From: an uncultured Akkermansia sp.
GTDB lineage: Bacteria; Verrucomicrobiota; Verrucomicrobiia; Verrucomicrobiales; Akkermansiaceae
Assembly (NCBI GenBank): GCA_947630815.1
Contig: CANRJD010000012.1
Coordinates: 1 to 35,123 of the forward strand
Direction of reading: 5' to 3'
Length of the DNA: 35,123 nt
Shown here: piece by piece, positions 4,184 through 34,720 of the stretch
Layout: each line of letters opens with the position of its first letter
Numbering within the stretch: position 1 is the stretch's first letter
Program-made: the position numbers and the translations under genes
Notes under the pieces: generated by a model
What the model was told of the DNA's origin: nothing
What the model saw: only the letters and a program-made list of their open reading frames with translations
The model's database searches: none

Positions 4184-5581
4184 ATGAAAATCCAAGCCAA
4201 GTACACACCCGAACTGGATCCAAAGTTTGTGTCTCCCGCACTTTGGAACAAAGCCTTTGAAGAAAAAGTGGCGCAGACGCCCGGAAAGCAGAGCATCGAC
4301 ATAGCGTTGACGCGTCAGGATGGCACCTGTTTTCGATGGAGCGGAGAACTGCTGCCGGATGGAGCCGAGAACGACGAGTTGAATTTCCGGTATGTAGAGC
4401 GCATAGTGAAGTTTTTGTTGTGGATGAAGGGGGGCTGTACGGTGATGGTGGCAGGAGCTGCGAAAGTAGCGGACGCGTTGGCCGAGACTTATTGCAAAGG
4501 CGGGGCGCGAGAGTTTGATTGGGACTTCATCGGCAAGCTCATCTACGACCAGCCGATCGAGATCGTGAAAGTGGCGAGTGCGGCGGAATTACCCGCGGAG
4601 CACATGAGTTCTATCTCGCTGGGTCGCAATTTGGACGGCTACCGCATAGGATTTGACCTAGGAGGATCGGATCGCAAGGCTGCTGCGGTAGTGAACGGCG
4701 AGGTAGTATATTCCGAAGAAGTGGTGTGGAACCCCTACCACGAAAAGGATCCCAATTACCACTTGGAGGGCGTGGATGACTCGTTGAAGCGAGTGGCTAA
4801 GCATCTGCCTCAGGTGGACGCTATCGGGGGATCGGCAGCCGGAGTGTACGTGAACAATGAGCCGCGTGTGGCGTCGTTGTTCCGCGGCATAGCGCCGGAT
4901 GATTTCAAGAATGTGATACGTCCGATGTTTCACACCTTGCAGCAGAGGTGGAGCGAGAGAATGGGCAAGCATGTGCCTTTTGATGTGGTGAATGATGGCG
5001 AAGTGACGGCGCTGGCGGGCGCTATGGGCATGAATGACGATGCTGTACTGGGTATAGCAATGGGCACTTCGTTGGCCTCCGGCTACGTGGACCCGGAGGG
5101 GCACATCATGCCATGGCTCAATGAGCTCGCCTTCGTGCCGGTGGATTATCAGGAAGACGGTGGCGTGGACGAGTGGTCCAAGGACAAGGGCGTGGGGGCC
5201 ATGTACTTCTCGCAGCAGGCGGTAGCTCGTCTCGCGCCGCGGGCGGGATTTGACTTTGGCGACATGCCTTACCCCGAGCAGCTCAAGAAGGTGCAGGCCG
5301 CTATGGCGGAGGGTGATGAGCGAGCCCGCAAGATCTACGAAACAATTGGAATCGAGTTTGGTTATTCGGTGGCGTATTTCTCCCGCTTCTACAGCGTGCG
5401 CAATCTGCTCTTCCTGGGGCGCGTGGCTACGGGCGAGGGGGGGCAAATCATCATCGATAAGGCCAACGAAGTGTTGCAGGCGGAGTTCCCGGAGCTGCAC
5501 ATCAACTTGTGTGTGCCGGATGAGCGCACAAAACGTCATGGCCAGGCTGTGGCCGCGGCGTCCTTGCCGAAAATAGGATAA
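4184..5581 (+). CDS. ROK family protein / sugar kinase-like
   Basis: ROK-type ATPase motif YRIGFDLGGSDRKAAAV; IGGSAAGVYVN; VVNDGEVTALAGAMG; AMGTSLASGYV. Confidence 0.75.
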   Translation: MKIQAKYTPELDPKFVSPALWNKAFEEKVAQTPGKQSIDIALTRQDGTCFRWSGELLPDGAENDELNFRYVERIVKFLLWMKGGCTVMVAGAAKVADALAETYCKGGAREFDWDFIGKLIYDQPIEIVKVASAAELPAEHMSSISLGRNLDGYRIGFDLGGSDRKAAAVVNGEVVYSEEVVWNPYHEKDPNYHLEGVDDSLKRVAKHLPQVDAIGGSAAGVYVNNEPRVASLFRGIAPDDFKNVIRPMFHTLQQRWSERMGKHVPFDVVNDGEVTALAGAMGMNDDAVLGIAMGTSLASGYVDPEGHIMPWLNELAFVPVDYQEDGGVDEWSKDKGVGAMYFSQQAVARLAPRAGFDFGDMPYPEQLKKVQAAMAEGDERARKIYETIGIEFGYSVAYFSRFYSVRNLLFLGRVATGEGGQIIIDKANEVLQAEFPELHINLCVPDERTKRHGQAVAAASLPKIG

Positions 5582-5687: not shown

Positions 5688-8600
5688 ATGGCCAAGGGGA
5701 ATGAGATATGGGTGTGCCCACAGTGCGGAGCGCACGTGGACATATCCGGGCTTGGCCTGTATGCGGAAGTGGTTTGTCCGCGGTGTTATTACATGGACAG
5801 GGTCCACATGCAACTGGGCAATTTCCGGTTGGAGAGCGTCATCGGTATAGGTGGCATGAGTGTGGTGTACCGTGCGTTGGATGTGACGCTGAACCGCCCC
5901 GTAGCACTCAAGGTGCTCAATGACACATTCCGCGAACAGCCGGAGCGGATTGAGCGTTTTGAAAATGAAAGTGCCATGATGGCACGTGTTCGGCATGACA
6001 ACGTGGTCTCAGTGTATTCTGCCGGGCGGGCGTACGGACAATTCTACATAGCTATGGAGCTGGTGGAGGGCGAGAACCTGGAACAGATGGTGAGTGCGGA
6101 ACAGCCTCTGAATGCCAGGTACGCACTGGAGGTTGTGCGGCAGGTTTCGCTCGGGTTGCGCGCGGCGAGTGAGGCTGGGTTGTTGCACCGCGACATGAAA
6201 CCGGGCAACATTTTGATTACAAACGGGAAAAGGGTGAAAGTGATCGACTTTGGTCTGGCGTTGGACAACTCAACCGACGACAAGGAGGAGGTCATTTGGG
6301 CCACTCCCTACTACGTGCCTCCTGAGACTCTGAAGCGCAAGGCTGAGGATGTGCGCACAGATATCTATGCGTTGGGCATGACGCTCAAATACCTGCTGAG
6401 CGGGGTAGAAACATTTCAGGCTCCGGTTGATTCGGTGACGGCCCTGCTGGAATGCAAGAAGCAGCAGCCCTCTTTTGCTACACAACGTCCGGATTTGGAG
6501 CCCGCATTGTGTGATTTGGCGGATCACATGACGGAGTTTAACCCTGCCGGACGACCGAGCAATTATGATGAACTGCTCGAGGAGATCGACGAGGTGCAGC
6601 AGATCTTGGCAGAGCAGGAGATCGCTGAGAAGCGCGCGATATGGCGCAAGCTTGCCGGATGGTCCATATGGGCGGCAGCGGTTGTCGTGCTTGGGGCGGT
6701 GGCTGCTATGGTAGTGTCCCGGTTTGCTCCGACTGATGAGCAAGGAATGCAGTACGAGGTGGTGAAGTCGGAGTCGGTCTCTGTTGTCCCTCCCGGTGTG
6801 CCGCAGCTGGAGAAAGCGCTCGAAAAGATCAATAAAGAGGAGTATGAGAAGGCGGCGGAATATCTGCTTGCACTGGCTCGCTCTACGCAAGATACTTCCC
6901 TGCGGGCGTGGGCTGCGGGGATTTCGTTGATGCTCGGACATGTCGTGCCGATCGCCAATCCGCAGATGGAACCCGAGGCAACCCGACTGCTTCAAGAGAG
7001 TGCTCAGAACACGACTGCATCGGTGGGTCAAACACGTTGGCTCGGGCAACAGTCGCCCCAAGAGAGTGCTCAGAACACGGCTGCGTGTTCGTCGGATATG
7101 GTGGACCCCCGGGACATCATGCAGGCTGTCGTGGAGTGGTCGGAGCCTACACCGGGAGAATGGTACCGCGCCGGCACCCCATGGTCAGGGAAAAAGGTGG
7201 ATGAGCTTCAGGCAGAGACAGCGCCGGGGCCGATTCGACTGGCGCTTTTGCTGCAGCTTGCTGACCAGGCTCTGTGGGATGGTCGGGAGGATGCTGTCTC
7301 CCATATCCGCGGCAAGCTGAACGAGGCTCTCCCCAATTTGGGTCCGTACGCTGCCTTGGGGCAGCTCATTGAGCGTGTTTTCGATGCGCGAATCCTAGTC
7401 CGCAGAACGGCCAAATATATGGGGCAACGTAGCCGTATACTTGACCAGTGGCGCAAGGATTTGCCCACCCAGAGCCAAATTGATGAGCTGGGCGCCATGG
7501 CTGCCCACACGGAGTTGCCTCTCTACTTGCGCAACAAGATTTCCGTGGAGAAGGAAGCTGCTCTCGTTGCTGTCAACATGGGAAATATGCTCATGCGCAA
7601 ATTTCCGGACGCGTGCAAAAAAGGAATGACTCTTGAGCAAATGCTGAATGCCGTAGAGGTGAACTCGGGGGGGCGCTTGGTCATTATCGGTTCGTCAGCG
7701 CGTCGGGGGCGAGAGGTGCGTTACTTGACAGATAATAACAAAAACACGAGCTGGTGCGCCTCCAGCAGCGAAACCGGGCATGTCCTGCGCATCAAATTCC
7801 CCACAGAGGCTAAGATCGGTAAAATCGTTCTTGATTGGGAGGACAGTGCGCCGCAGACATACAGTCTTACCGGTTATCATCTCGACAAGCCTGTGGGAAC
7901 AGCTAATATCGCGAAGAACACGGCTTCCTCAACCATAGATATGGGAGGAGTCCTGCTCGATCGGCTCGACGTATCGCTGGAAAAAACAACAGGGAATCAC
8001 CAGCCGGGTATTCGAGAAATTGCGCTATATGATCCGGAAGGGAAACGCCTCTTCTGCCCTGAAACAGACTCCGAGAAATGTGTTAAAATCAAGGCAGACA
8101 GTGAGGAGGCGACCCATATTGCGGAATATGCGATGGATGGAGACGAGGAAACGCGTTGGTGTGCGAGTAATAATCGTTCGGGCTATTCGCTTACCCTCAC
8201 GTTCCCCAAGGCAAAGAAGTTGCGGCGTGTCAACGTAGTATGGGAGAATGCCACGAATCAGGAGGGGGTGATAGAGGGCTTCCAGGGATCCACCTGCGTG
8301 TACTCAGTACCTTTCTCAAAGAAACAGAAACGTTCGTCGGTGGATTTGCCAAAAGATGATGTGTCCGAGATGGTATTTCGGTTCACGAATACGAAAGGGA
8401 ACTGGGCGAGTATATGCGAATTAGAAATACTCGACAGCCAAGGGCGGGTTGTTACGGTGGACGGAGAAGGGGGAGGGAGATTGCCGGGGGCGCTGGCTCT
8501 TGATATCAGGACGGTCGCGGAAATAATGAAAGGAGGTACGGACGATATGTCAAGTAAGCTTTCAGGGGCGCTCGCGAGTCGTGCAACGGATGACACTGTG

Positions 8601-9101
8601 TTTGGAGCTGTAGCGCGTTCATGGCAGAGGCGATTGAATGTAGGGAAGGATGCTAGGAATATGGAGAACGAGGAATTGCAGGGTGACCGGGCAGAGGCGT
8701 TGAAAAAGATTATAGAGCGCTGCCGCCGCTGTCGTGTGACGACAGTCAACGAAAATCACTTCGTCAGATATCTGAATTCGCTGACCTTTAACGCAGGAAT
8801 GCAGAATGTCGAAGACGAACAGGAAGCTCTGTTCTTGTACCGGGCCGGTATTGTGCGCTTGGTGGATACGAAAGTGCTGCCCATGCTGGGTTTGCACGAA
8901 AATCGGATAGATTCTTTCAGCTTGGTTGCCGGGGAGATACAGCCTGTACCGGAGCAGACGGCGCGCCGCTTTGAGGAAGCGGGTTCGGGTGTGATTTTGA
9001 ACACGAACAGCCGTCTGGAGTCGTACACCGGCGAGATGAAGCCTAATCCTACTTCATTTTTACTCAATCGTGTGCCGGTGTACGACTGCCCGCCCAAATA
9101 A
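5688..9101 (+). CDS. Membrane Ser/Thr protein kinase with N-terminal zinc ribbon and two C-terminal discoidin (F5/8C)-like domains
   Basis: CPQC...CPRC ribbon; kinase motifs IGIGGMSVVYRALD, VALKVLN, LLHRDMKPGNILI, VIDFGLAL; TM helix WSIWAAAVVVLGAVAAMVV; paired DNNKNTSWCASSSETGHVLRIKFP and DGDEETRWCASNNRSGYSLTLTFP. SD-like GGAGGGA upstream. Confidence 0.88.
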   Translation: MAKGNEIWVCPQCGAHVDISGLGLYAEVVCPRCYYMDRVHMQLGNFRLESVIGIGGMSVVYRALDVTLNRPVALKVLNDTFREQPERIERFENESAMMARVRHDNVVSVYSAGRAYGQFYIAMELVEGENLEQMVSAEQPLNARYALEVVRQVSLGLRAASEAGLLHRDMKPGNILITNGKRVKVIDFGLALDNSTDDKEEVIWATPYYVPPETLKRKAEDVRTDIYALGMTLKYLLSGVETFQAPVDSVTALLECKKQQPSFATQRPDLEPALCDLADHMTEFNPAGRPSNYDELLEEIDEVQQILAEQEIAEKRAIWRKLAGWSIWAAAVVVLGAVAAMVVSRFAPTDEQGMQYEVVKSESVSVVPPGVPQLEKALEKINKEEYEKAAEYLLALARSTQDTSLRAWAAGISLMLGHVVPIANPQMEPEATRLLQESAQNTTASVGQTRWLGQQSPQESAQNTAACSSDMVDPRDIMQAVVEWSEPTPGEWYRAGTPWSGKKVDELQAETAPGPIRLALLLQLADQALWDGREDAVSHIRGKLNEALPNLGPYAALGQLIERVFDARILVRRTAKYMGQRSRILDQWRKDLPTQSQIDELGAMAAHTELPLYLRNKISVEKEAALVAVNMGNMLMRKFPDACKKGMTLEQMLNAVEVNSGGRLVIIGSSARRGREVRYLTDNNKNTSWCASSSETGHVLRIKFPTEAKIGKIVLDWEDSAPQTYSLTGYHLDKPVGTANIAKNTASSTIDMGGVLLDRLDVSLEKTTGNHQPGIREIALYDPEGKRLFCPETDSEKCVKIKADSEEATHIAEYAMDGDEETRWCASNNRSGYSLTLTFPKAKKLRRVNVVWENATNQEGVIEGFQGSTCVYSVPFSKKQKRSSVDLPKDDVSEMVFRFTNTKGNWASICELEILDSQGRVVTVDGEGGGRLPGALALDIRTVAEIMKGGTDDMSSKLSGALASRATDDTVFGAVARSWQRRLNVGKDARNMENEELQGDRAEALKKIIERCRRCRVTTVNENHFVRYLNSLTFNAGMQNVEDEQEALFLYRAGIVRLVDTKVLPMLGLHENRIDSFSLVAGEIQPVPEQTARRFEEAGSGVILNTNSRLESYTGEMKPNPTSFLLNRVPVYDCPPK
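6993..7079 (+). repeat. In-frame 66-bp-spaced direct repeat inside the kinase gene
   Basis: caagagagtgctcagaacacg at 6993 and 7059, translated QESAQNT; offset 66 bp = 22 codons. Confidence 0.8.
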
Positions 9102-9302: not shown

Positions 9303-9347
9303 TCATCCCAAAGCGGCAACCAAAGCGATGGTGAAGGCGGGGGAGTC
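9303..9347 (-). pseudogene. Remnant of a third cdsA copy (C-terminal tail only)
   Basis: Minus strand encodes DSPAFTIALVAALG*, matching the intact CdsA tail DSPAFTIALVAALSTF* with synonymous codon differences. Confidence 0.75.
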
Positions 9348-9350
9348 AGG

Positions 9351-9671
9351 GCAACCGCATTAGAAAACGCGGTTGCCTATGTACAACACGCACGACGGTC
9401 GTAAGTGCGTATGGACAGCGCGCAGGCGCTGCCCCGCAGGGGCGAACCGGCAGAGTGGTGCCGGTGAGTCAACTTACGAGGTACGATGTACGATTTATTC
9501 ATAATGTGCGCGTTGCGCAGATTTTTTCGGATCATTAATGTATGTTGAGATCTCTTTAGATCCATCAGCATGATGACCGCTTGTTGTCATAACTTTTGAT
9601 GCGTATTAACTGTAATATCAGTCAATAAGGGCATTCCTCTGTTGATTAACTTCTTCTCAAATGCGTTTGCC
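9351..9671 (+). repeat. Repeat family 1, long copy C
   Basis: GCAACCGCATTAGAAAACGCGGTTGCC ... triple-hairpin cassette ... ATTTATTCATAATGTGCGCG...TCAATAAGGGC...CTCAAATGCGTTTGCC. Confidence 0.85.
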
Positions 9672-10042
9672 GTGTATGTTCGCTCAATCCAGGCTTTATG
9701 GATGCCCCCATGGCGTCCAATACAAAGTCAATTCCCTCACGTCTTGCAAACTTTGCAGCAGGAACAAAATCGCTATCTCCGGCAATGAGAACGATCTTAT
9801 CCACTCGTTTTCTTCAGATCCACCGTTTTCTTGAGAAGTGGGTGATATACCTTCTTTTCAGAAGGAGCGCAATCGTAGTAAAGAACTCGGTACAAGGAGC
9901 AATCTTCCCTATCATGAGCCAGATGTCGCTGGCAATATCTGTACAAGGTATCAGCAGCTCTAGCCGGAATCTCGTGACCGGTAAAACCAACAATCTTGCG
10001 GCGATAATAGCCACCATCAACTAAAATAGCAGTCTTGATCAT
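9672..10042 (-). pseudogene. NYN-domain (LabA/PIN-like) protein, internally deleted and frameshifted
   Basis: N part MIKTAILVDGGYYRRK...LYRVLYYDCAPSEKKVYHPLLKKTVDLKKTSG*; after a frame change, VDKIVLIAGDSDFVPAAKFARREGIDFVLDAM. The middle of the family is missing. Confidence 0.85.
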
Positions 10043-10050
10043 GATAATAA

Positions 10051-10104
10051 AAAAGCCCCCACGTTCATAGATTCCCGGATGATGGGAGAATTACTGGTGG
10101 GGGC
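10051..10104 (-). terminator. Terminator/attenuator-like hairpin in the leader of the NYN pseudogene
   Basis: Minus strand GCCCCCAC (10104-10097) ... GTGGGGGC (10062-10055) followed by TTTTTTATTATCATG. Confidence 0.55.
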
Positions 10105-10275
10105 GGATAAAGTTTTCGTCGGAATCACTTCCGCTAAGAAAAAGCTACTATGTGAGAGACATTTTGTCAATCTTTATTTTTCTCTTTTGTTTATACGGTG
10201 GATCGCCAAATGAAATGCAATAAGCTCAAAGCGCCCGACGCCCCCGTGCAGGGCGATCGCGATGACAAGCGAACA

Positions 10276-11136
10276 TCAAAACATCGAAAGGGCTGCGACG
10301 AACGCGATGGTGAAAGAGGGGGAAGCGATAAGGTCGATGATACCGCCGATGCCAGGGAGGAGGTGGCTACTGTCTTTCACGCCGAGGCAGCGTTTAATGA
10401 GAGAACAGGCGAGATTTCCCATAACGGAAATCAGAAATAGCAGGGCAGAAATTGAAGCGGCAAGCAGTATGGGGCCTTCCGGCTCAACCAATCGGAGAAG
10501 CACTGTCCCACTGAGGGTGGTGAAGAGCAAAGAGCCGATGATTCCCTCCCATGATTTTTCGGGAGAGACGGCGGGACTGAAGGGACGCGAGATAAAACGA
10601 CGCCCGACGAGAGCCCCGCAGAGATAGGTCCAGATGTCGCTCATCTTTGTCACAGCGATGAAGAGAAGAAGCATGAGAGCTGTCGACGGATTCAGAAAGA
10701 ACATGGCGAGCCCAAAAAGCCACCCGGGGTAAATGAACGCAACAAGAGAAATTCCCAAGCTGCGCAGGGCTGTCTCCGGGCTGCGCACCAAGCAGTCCAT
10801 CCTCACCACTTCACAGAGAAAAGCGAGGAGAACAAATATGATGAGTCCCACCAGAGGACAAGCCGAATAATTAGTCTCCAGGGGGTAGGCAAAAGGGGTT
10901 GAGATGAAAAGGCACCACGGATATATCAACCCTGCCAACACAACGAGCCAGCGGTTTTCTCCCGCATTGCTCTTGCGCAGCATGAAAAACCACTCGACTG
11001 CTGCCAGATTGCACAGCAAAGGCACGAGCACTTGCAGACAAATTCCATCATACAAAATGCATGCCGCAGCCACCACAGCAAGACTGATGATGGTGGAGAA
11101 GAGGCGCTTGAGAAAAGTCTTGAACTTGTCGCTCAT
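10276..11136 (-). CDS. cdsA: Phosphatidate cytidylyltransferase paralog 1
   Basis: CdsA-like TM protein; KKMSDIWTYLCGALVGR-type motif (TKMSDIWTYLCGALVGRRFISRPFSPAVSPEKSWEG) and VKDSSHLLPGIGGIIDLIAS. Confidence 0.8.
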   Translation of the reverse strand: MSDKFKTFLKRLFSTIISLAVVAAACILYDGICLQVLVPLLCNLAAVEWFFMLRKSNAGENRWLVVLAGLIYPWCLFISTPFAYPLETNYSACPLVGLIIFVLLAFLCEVVRMDCLVRSPETALRSLGISLVAFIYPGWLFGLAMFFLNPSTALMLLLFIAVTKMSDIWTYLCGALVGRRFISRPFSPAVSPEKSWEGIIGSLLFTTLSGTVLLRLVEPEGPILLAASISALLFLISVMGNLACSLIKRCLGVKDSSHLLPGIGGIIDLIASPSFTIAFVAALSMF

Positions 11137-11166
11137 CGTCGCGGAAAGGTCAACTGCGAGCGGGCG

Positions 11167-12039
11167 TCAAAATGTCGAAAGGGCTGCGACAAGCGCGATG
11201 GTGAAGGCGGGGGAGTCAATGAGGTCGATGATACCGCCGATGCCGGGGAGGAGGTGGCTGCTGTCCTTCACGCCAATACCTCGCTTAACGAGCGAACCGG
11301 CGAGATCCCCCGCCACGGAGATGAAATAAACTACGACAGCGCTTATGATGGCAAACCACATGGGATATTCCGGCTCGACAAATCGGATGAGCATTACCGC
11401 GCTGAGGGTAGTGAGGATCAAGGAGCCGATGAATCCCTCCCACGATTTCTTGGGAGAGACGGTCGGGCTGAAAGGACGCGAGATGAAACGGCGTCCGACA
11501 AGAACCCCGCAGAGGTAGGCCCAGATGTCGCTGAGTTTGGTGATGACCACAATCGTCACAAGGATGGGCAGGCCATAATGCGGCTCCATATAACCGAGAG
11601 CAAAGGCAAGGAACCAGCCCGGATAAACAAAGGCGAAAACAGTGGTGCCGACGCTGCGGAGAGCTGCCTCAGCGCTCTGCTTCCCGTAATCCATGCGAAA
11701 TAATTCACAAATGACAGCGGTCAGGATAAAAAGGACGAGACAGGCAATCACAACCGGGAACACGAGGACGGGGAGTTGAGTTTGGGTATAAATTAAAGCC
11801 GCGATCCAAGGGTACAGCAGCCCTCCGATAAGGATGAGCCATCGATTGCACTCTGTTTTCTTCTCCCGCAACATCAGGAACCACTCGACGGCAGCCAGGT
11901 TGCAGAGCACGCAGATGAGCGCCGCGCAGTACCATGTGTTTTCAAAATAGTACGTCCCGCCCAACGCCGCCGCCACCACAGCAAGGACGATGATGGTGGA
12001 GAAGAGGCGCTTAAGGAAAGTTTTCAGTTTGTCGCTCAT
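11167..12039 (-). CDS. cdsA: Phosphatidate cytidylyltransferase paralog 2
   Basis: MSDKLKTFLKRLFSTI start shared with paralog 1; SPKKSWEGFIGS; VKDSSHLLPGIGGIIDLIDS. ORF extension upstream of 12039 overlaps fumarase and is rejected. Confidence 0.85.
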   Translation of the reverse strand: MSDKLKTFLKRLFSTIIVLAVVAAALGGTYYFENTWYCAALICVLCNLAAVEWFLMLREKKTECNRWLILIGGLLYPWIAALIYTQTQLPVLVFPVVIACLVLFILTAVICELFRMDYGKQSAEAALRSVGTTVFAFVYPGWFLAFALGYMEPHYGLPILVTIVVITKLSDIWAYLCGVLVGRRFISRPFSPTVSPKKSWEGFIGSLILTTLSAVMLIRFVEPEYPMWFAIISAVVVYFISVAGDLAGSLVKRGIGVKDSSHLLPGIGGIIDLIDSPAFTIALVAALSTF

Positions 12040-34324: not shown

Positions 34325-34720
34325 GGCAACCGCATTAGAAAATGCGGTTGCCTATGTACGATGTTGGATGTACGATGTACAACACGCACGACGGCTGTAA
34401 GTGCGTATGGACAGCGCGAAGGCGCTGCCCCGGAGGGGCGAACCGGCAGGGTGGTGCCGGTGAGTCAATTTGGAATTTAGCGCGCCTGTGGCGCGGGAAT
34501 TCTGCAAAGCAGGTGCAGAGGGATGTGGTGGAACCATGCGCGAGTTTGGTTAGGAAGGGGCGGTGGCAGACGGAGCCTGCTTATGTACGATGTTGGATGT
34601 ACGATGTACGATTGCAACGTGCCTGCAACGGGTCTGCAACAGACTTGCCCCGCAGGGGCGGTGGCGCCTAGCGGTGCCCATGTACGATGTGCGATTTCGA
34701 TTTTAGCGCGCGTGGCTCGG
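34325..34720 (+). repeat. Repeat-rich intergenic mosaic, family 1 copy F plus heptad and hairpin modules
   Basis: GGCAACCGCATTAGAAAATGCGGTTGCC, ACGATGT heptads, triple-hairpin cassette 34379-34468, GCCCCGCAGGGGC; no clear family-1 right end. Confidence 0.75.

Follow-up and report, generated by a model that had tools for sequence, protein, structure and literature searches.

Type I MITEs are mobilized by insertion sequences (IS) with the same ends. MITEs inside pseudogenes were reported in Anabaena sp. 90 (PMC3542288), and deletions by homologous recombination between copies of transposable elements, MITEs included, are known (PMC9330008, section 5.1). Tandem paralogy, disruption by a MITE and MITE-bounded deletion are all kinds of events already known. 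Our literature search found no published description of a tandem cdsA array, no account in Akkermansia of the MITE described here, and nothing relevant on MITEs with 10-bp duplications.

We analyzed a DNA stretch of 35,123 nt (in the following, the window), which is contig C12 of a genome of 2.09 Mb in 130 contigs (G000). Among named genomes, its closest relatives are MAGs of uncultured Akkermansia whose isolate names contain "Lapin" and which we took as originating from rabbits. The window carries a short multicopy element with the ends of a 1314-1315 bp IS and with 10-bp duplications, as known for type I MITEs, but its own genome has a transposase remnant only. As in Anabaena sp. 90, the MITE at this locus lies within a pseudogene. 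One copy left, mismatched flanks and lost intervening DNA are shared with the deletions caused by inter-element recombination, whereas the second copy before the deletion has to be postulated here. As for tandem duplication of cdsA (phosphatidate cytidylyltransferase, PF01148), two intact paralogs are present here, three in G016 and one in several relatives; in contrast to a simple duplication, one copy here is a pseudogene. We conclude, with a probability of about 90%, that the segment at 9303-9347 stems from the 3' end of an old third cdsA gene of a tandem array, and that this gene decayed in several steps, MITE insertion and a deletion among them.

Both intact cdsA genes of the window are on the minus strand, paralog 1 at 10276-11136 (PF01148, E 5e-40) and paralog 2 at 11167-12039 (PF01148, E 9e-49), and they are the only intact cdsA genes in their own genome. 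The reverse complement of 9303-9347, GACTCCCCCGCCTTCACCATCGCTTTGGTTGCCGCTTTGGGATGA, translates into DSPAFTIALVAALG followed by a stop codon. Its first 13 residues all agree with the CdsA paralog 2 tail, DSPAFTIALVAAL (13/13), and 10 of 13 agree with paralog 1. At the DNA level, a stretch of 24 nt is identical to cdsA paralog 2 and the differences in the remainder are synonymous. The first-pass annotation had described the segment as nearly identical to the paralog 2 tail, with codons differing synonymously, and our comparison agrees with both statements, the latter for the positions outside the identical stretch. The in-frame TGA at 9303-9305 may differ from the original stop, because the intact cdsA genes continue with STF or SMF before their stop codons. 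The cdsA domain reading frame is not intact, with about 14 codons in the window and truncated and disrupted versions in relatives, and most likely the remnant has no function.

Since the remnant is short, and its final residue and stop are unlike those of the intact cdsA genes, we considered that the match of 14 codons arose by chance or convergence and is unrelated to cdsA. The best match within the window outside the cdsA genes was 6/13 residues, and in 20 Markov simulations of the window the best match reached 6-7/13, compared to the 13/13 observed. Furthermore, the same tail is found 3' of a cdsA pseudogene of 490 bp in the relative G084. The simulations and the relatives led us to reject a chance match, the probability of which we regard as negligible.

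We inspected the same locus in relatives to see whether three tandem cdsA genes are present, and this is the case in G016: three intact genes in the same orientation lie between fumarase and the kinase gene. Past the third cdsA lies a fragment of an NYN-domain gene, to which a small piece of the same tail, CAACTCCCCCGCTTTCACCATCGC, is joined directly. In G084 (L113), the order is an intact NYN gene, a cdsA pseudogene of approximately 490 bp, an element of 242 bp, ACTCCCCCGCTTTCACCATCGCTTTGGTTGCCGCTTTGGGATGA, noncoding DNA, and the kinase gene. The G084 tail is 98% identical to the window remnant (9303-9346, minus strand), and the noncoding DNA and kinase gene beyond are the same. The G082 contig (L065) shows the NYN gene, followed by approximately 490 bp of cdsA pseudogene sequence. 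This sequence begins around residue 117-121, contains a stop and a frameshift, and ends after ATCGACTCCCCCGC, where the repeat element starts; this left junction is the same as in G084. In G087 (L117), the pseudogene lies beside the kinase gene and is unbroken across the DSPA site, without any element (empty site). In G088, a different contig carries the NYN gene together with the initial part of the pseudogene. Homology of the pseudogene to the CTP_transf_1 family (PF01148) is supported by 77% identity to CdsA2 over 140 aa in G084 and by the PF01148 matches of the intact neighbors. The earlier proposal of a former cdsA array at this locus is therefore supported by the three intact genes of G016 and by the longer pseudogene that adjoins the NYN gene on its 3' side in G084, G082, G088 and G087, at this position wherever the contig extends to the kinase gene.

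A tree of the common 490 bp grouped the pseudogenes of G082, G084 and G088 as a clade of their own next to that of cdsA2 (supports 0.93-0.97). It rules out a recent DNA copy of cdsA2, in line with the first-pass annotation, and sets these pseudogenes apart as a separate old paralog. The G087 pseudogene grouped with the middle gene of G016 in this tree, and perhaps the copies exchange segments. Which cdsA copy bears the tail type FVAALSMF and which FVTPFLLF varies from genome to genome, and the sole intact cdsA on the G082 contig combines a cdsA2 body with a tail of the cdsA1 type. The exchange of gene ends between the paralogs is directly visible from these tail types across genomes. The number of intact cdsA copies varies among close relatives, with 1, 2 or 3 copies (window 10276-12039; L063, L065, L066). 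The paralogs have near-identical ends, and their central parts have diverged. Both features would be expected if a tandem array undergoes gene conversion and unequal crossing-over.

The repeat next to the remnant extends from 9347 to 9674 on the minus strand (328 bp), with the left end CACGGC at 9674 and the right end CCCTG at 9347. It was thought before that the cdsA homology stops 1-3 bp before the repeat. There is no such gap: the element starts exactly at 9347 (CAGGGCAACC...), and the first coding base of the remnant on the minus strand (G, 9347) is common to the element end. No ORF of at least 80 aa is present within 9347-9674. The 16-mer of the left end (up to 1 mismatch) occurs 103 times in the own genome (approximately 2.1 Mb) and 0 times in the reversed control. 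When the flanking bases of 47 copies from this and related genomes were compared, 17 showed at least 8 of 10 matching positions, indicating a 10-bp duplication, whereas the flanks of the window copy are mismatched (2/10). Target duplications of the ISAs1 family have 8-10 bp. The duplication of 10 bp in 17/47 copies and at the G084 copy of this locus fits this range; it is lost at the window copy. Judged from its ends, copy number and duplications, the repeat is best classified as an ISAs1-family MITE. The flanks were also inspected for a palindromic target motif (TCAAG...CTTGA), and base counts of the 17 duplicated sites gave no clear consensus. Several copies (L149, L134, L166, L130) have TTGAC just outside the right end, and in some of them a sequence resembling TATAAT comes next, so that the element would seem to lie directly upstream of promoters in many cases. 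A segment of 97 bp (9379-9475, plus strand), which is absent from the G084 copy in the alignment, has a second copy with 94% identity at 34375-34471 (repeat D10); it forms part of some MITE copies and is also present at other places in the genome.

An autonomous IS of 1314-1315 bp that shares its ends, the terminal inverted repeats, with the MITE was found in G087, G016 and G084. The G087 IS (L191) is flanked by a 10-bp duplication, AACCAAGGGG, and its right end is identical to that of the window MITE (21/21), while the left end is 90% identical over 21 positions. Its transposase belongs to the ISAs1 family (NF033564, E 1.9e-100, 336 bits at a cut-off of 70; also PF13808 and PF01609). In the own genome, which is 87% complete, a transposase of the ISAs1 kind was seen only as a remnant (G000:C119). 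The shared ends suggest that the MITE was probably mobilized by an ISAs1-family transposase.

The relatives also reveal how the element came to lie beside the cdsA tail. In G084, it is flanked on both sides by the 10-bp duplication ACTCCCCCGC, and it therefore represents an insertion into the pseudogene. One copy of this duplication is retained in the window inside the remnant (9337-9346, minus strand), and the other copy is gone. We also considered that the repeat brought the cdsA tail from elsewhere as transduced flanking DNA, since the remnant adjoins the element end. However, among the repeat matches in the own genome only the window copy extends across the cdsA tail, in G084 the element separates two halves of a single gene, and the site in G087 is empty. 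The own-genome matches and the G084 halves led us to reject this explanation, which is hardly credible.

Repeat insertion or recombination had been suspected of deleting most of the third cdsA copy, and this holds only in part. The insertion itself deleted nothing, as both halves and the 10-bp duplication are present in G084. All four relatives that carry the longer pseudogene lack its first third, at the junction with the NYN gene, and this includes G087, whose DSPA site is free of the element. The middle was probably removed in the window by a later, element-bounded deletion. Compared to G082, the window lacks 535 bp (L065 3717-4251), which correspond to the NYN end and all of the pseudogene as far as the element. 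The loss is also seen relative to G084 and ends exactly at the left end of the MITE: the NYN gene of the window ends at GAGCGAACATA and is followed immediately by the CACGGC of the MITE, which the duplications at other copies in the own genome confirm as a left end. The left 203 bp of the window MITE are only 86.7% identical to the G084 copy, compared to 95-96% for the adjacent noncoding DNA (Fisher p 0.002), and the G084 copy has a left end of another type, CAGGGT.

The mismatched flanks, a left half unlike the G084 copy and an extra segment of about 97 bp led us to propose that the window MITE is probably a hybrid of two copies. With moderate confidence we favor recombination between two direct MITE copies, the second of them postulated, as the cause of the 535-bp loss. 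As the relatives show, the third cdsA copy lost its first third, in place of which the NYN gene with its leader is found, and gained frameshifts or stops. A MITE inserted in the DSPA codons of the pseudogene with a 10-bp target duplication, which the relatives likewise show. In the proposed last step, a second MITE would have lain in the 3' end of the decayed NYN gene in the lineage of the window, and recombination between the direct copies would have removed 535 bp. What would remain is one hybrid MITE, beyond which the cdsA tail lies isolated. None of the genomes examined showed a MITE at the NYN site.

The loss ends exactly at the left end of the MITE, without microhomology and with mismatched flanks, which would also fit a deletion driven by the transposase, in which the MITE in the cdsA pseudogene attacked the adjoining NYN gene and the DNA between was removed. 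Such a deletion would leave the original element in place, yet the window MITE resembles the G084 copy in its left half no more closely than it does other copies, and its end type differs from that of the G084 copy. In addition, the own genome yielded only a transposase remnant. We consider an adjacent deletion unlikely. It is also conceivable that the true locus retains two MITEs and the pseudogene between them, and that the short-read assembler merged the MITEs. The MAG is fragmented (130 contigs, the smallest examined of about 3 kb), has about 100 MITE left ends, and merging of two MITEs would look alike. Assemblies of relatives are interrupted here as well: L065 terminates within the element, and in G084 the break falls between cdsA1 and NYN. 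On the other hand, no further piece of the pseudogene was found among the contigs of about 3 kb and up in the own genome, and we regard an assembly collapse as rather improbable. Recombination between two direct MITE copies thus remains our preferred explanation of the loss.

The NYN gene of the window (9675-10042, minus strand; PF01936) is itself a pseudogene, with an internal deletion of 240 bp relative to the intact gene of G084 (L113 233-913) and its 3' end cut at the MITE. Apparently the same deletion occurs in the window (9797-9830) and in G087 (L117 6100-6160), whereas the otherwise closer G084 and G082 have the full gene. This pattern conflicts with the distribution of the insertion, unless the deletion arose twice or was exchanged by recombination, and it suggests recombination between lineages or repeated slippage. 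The leader of the NYN gene (10043-10135, minus strand) is conserved across the genus and contains a GC-rich, terminator-like hairpin and a U-run directly before the start codon. A nine-sequence alignment showed compensatory changes, with two-sided changes in 7 of the 19 predicted pairs, and a search of Rfam gave only sub-threshold matches, to TEG147. From these features, the leader may act as an attenuator.

On the other side of the remnant, the window encodes a Ser/Thr kinase of 1137 residues with F5/F8-type domains (5688-9101, plus strand), which diverges fast: identity is 86% in G084, but in G016 and G087 it falls to about 50% in the N-terminal and 33% in the C-terminal part. The gene next to it (4184-5581) is 92-99% identical.

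Since each step at this locus is of a known type, the value of the finding lies mainly in annotation, where the repeat is to be listed as a mobile element, at whose edges small fragments of genes are to be expected. A MITE family and its probable source transposase are identified in uncultured Akkermansia. The closely related genomes display the loss of a duplicated gene step by step, from the intact array to a truncated pseudogene, the insertion and the element-bounded deletion. It is a tentative idea, which we rate below even odds, that a previously undescribed, abundant ISAs1-derived MITE family of rabbit-gut Akkermansia repeatedly prunes decaying tandem genes by MITE-MITE recombination. 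If this is true, the numbers of cdsA copies and remnants would record MITE activity across closely related species.
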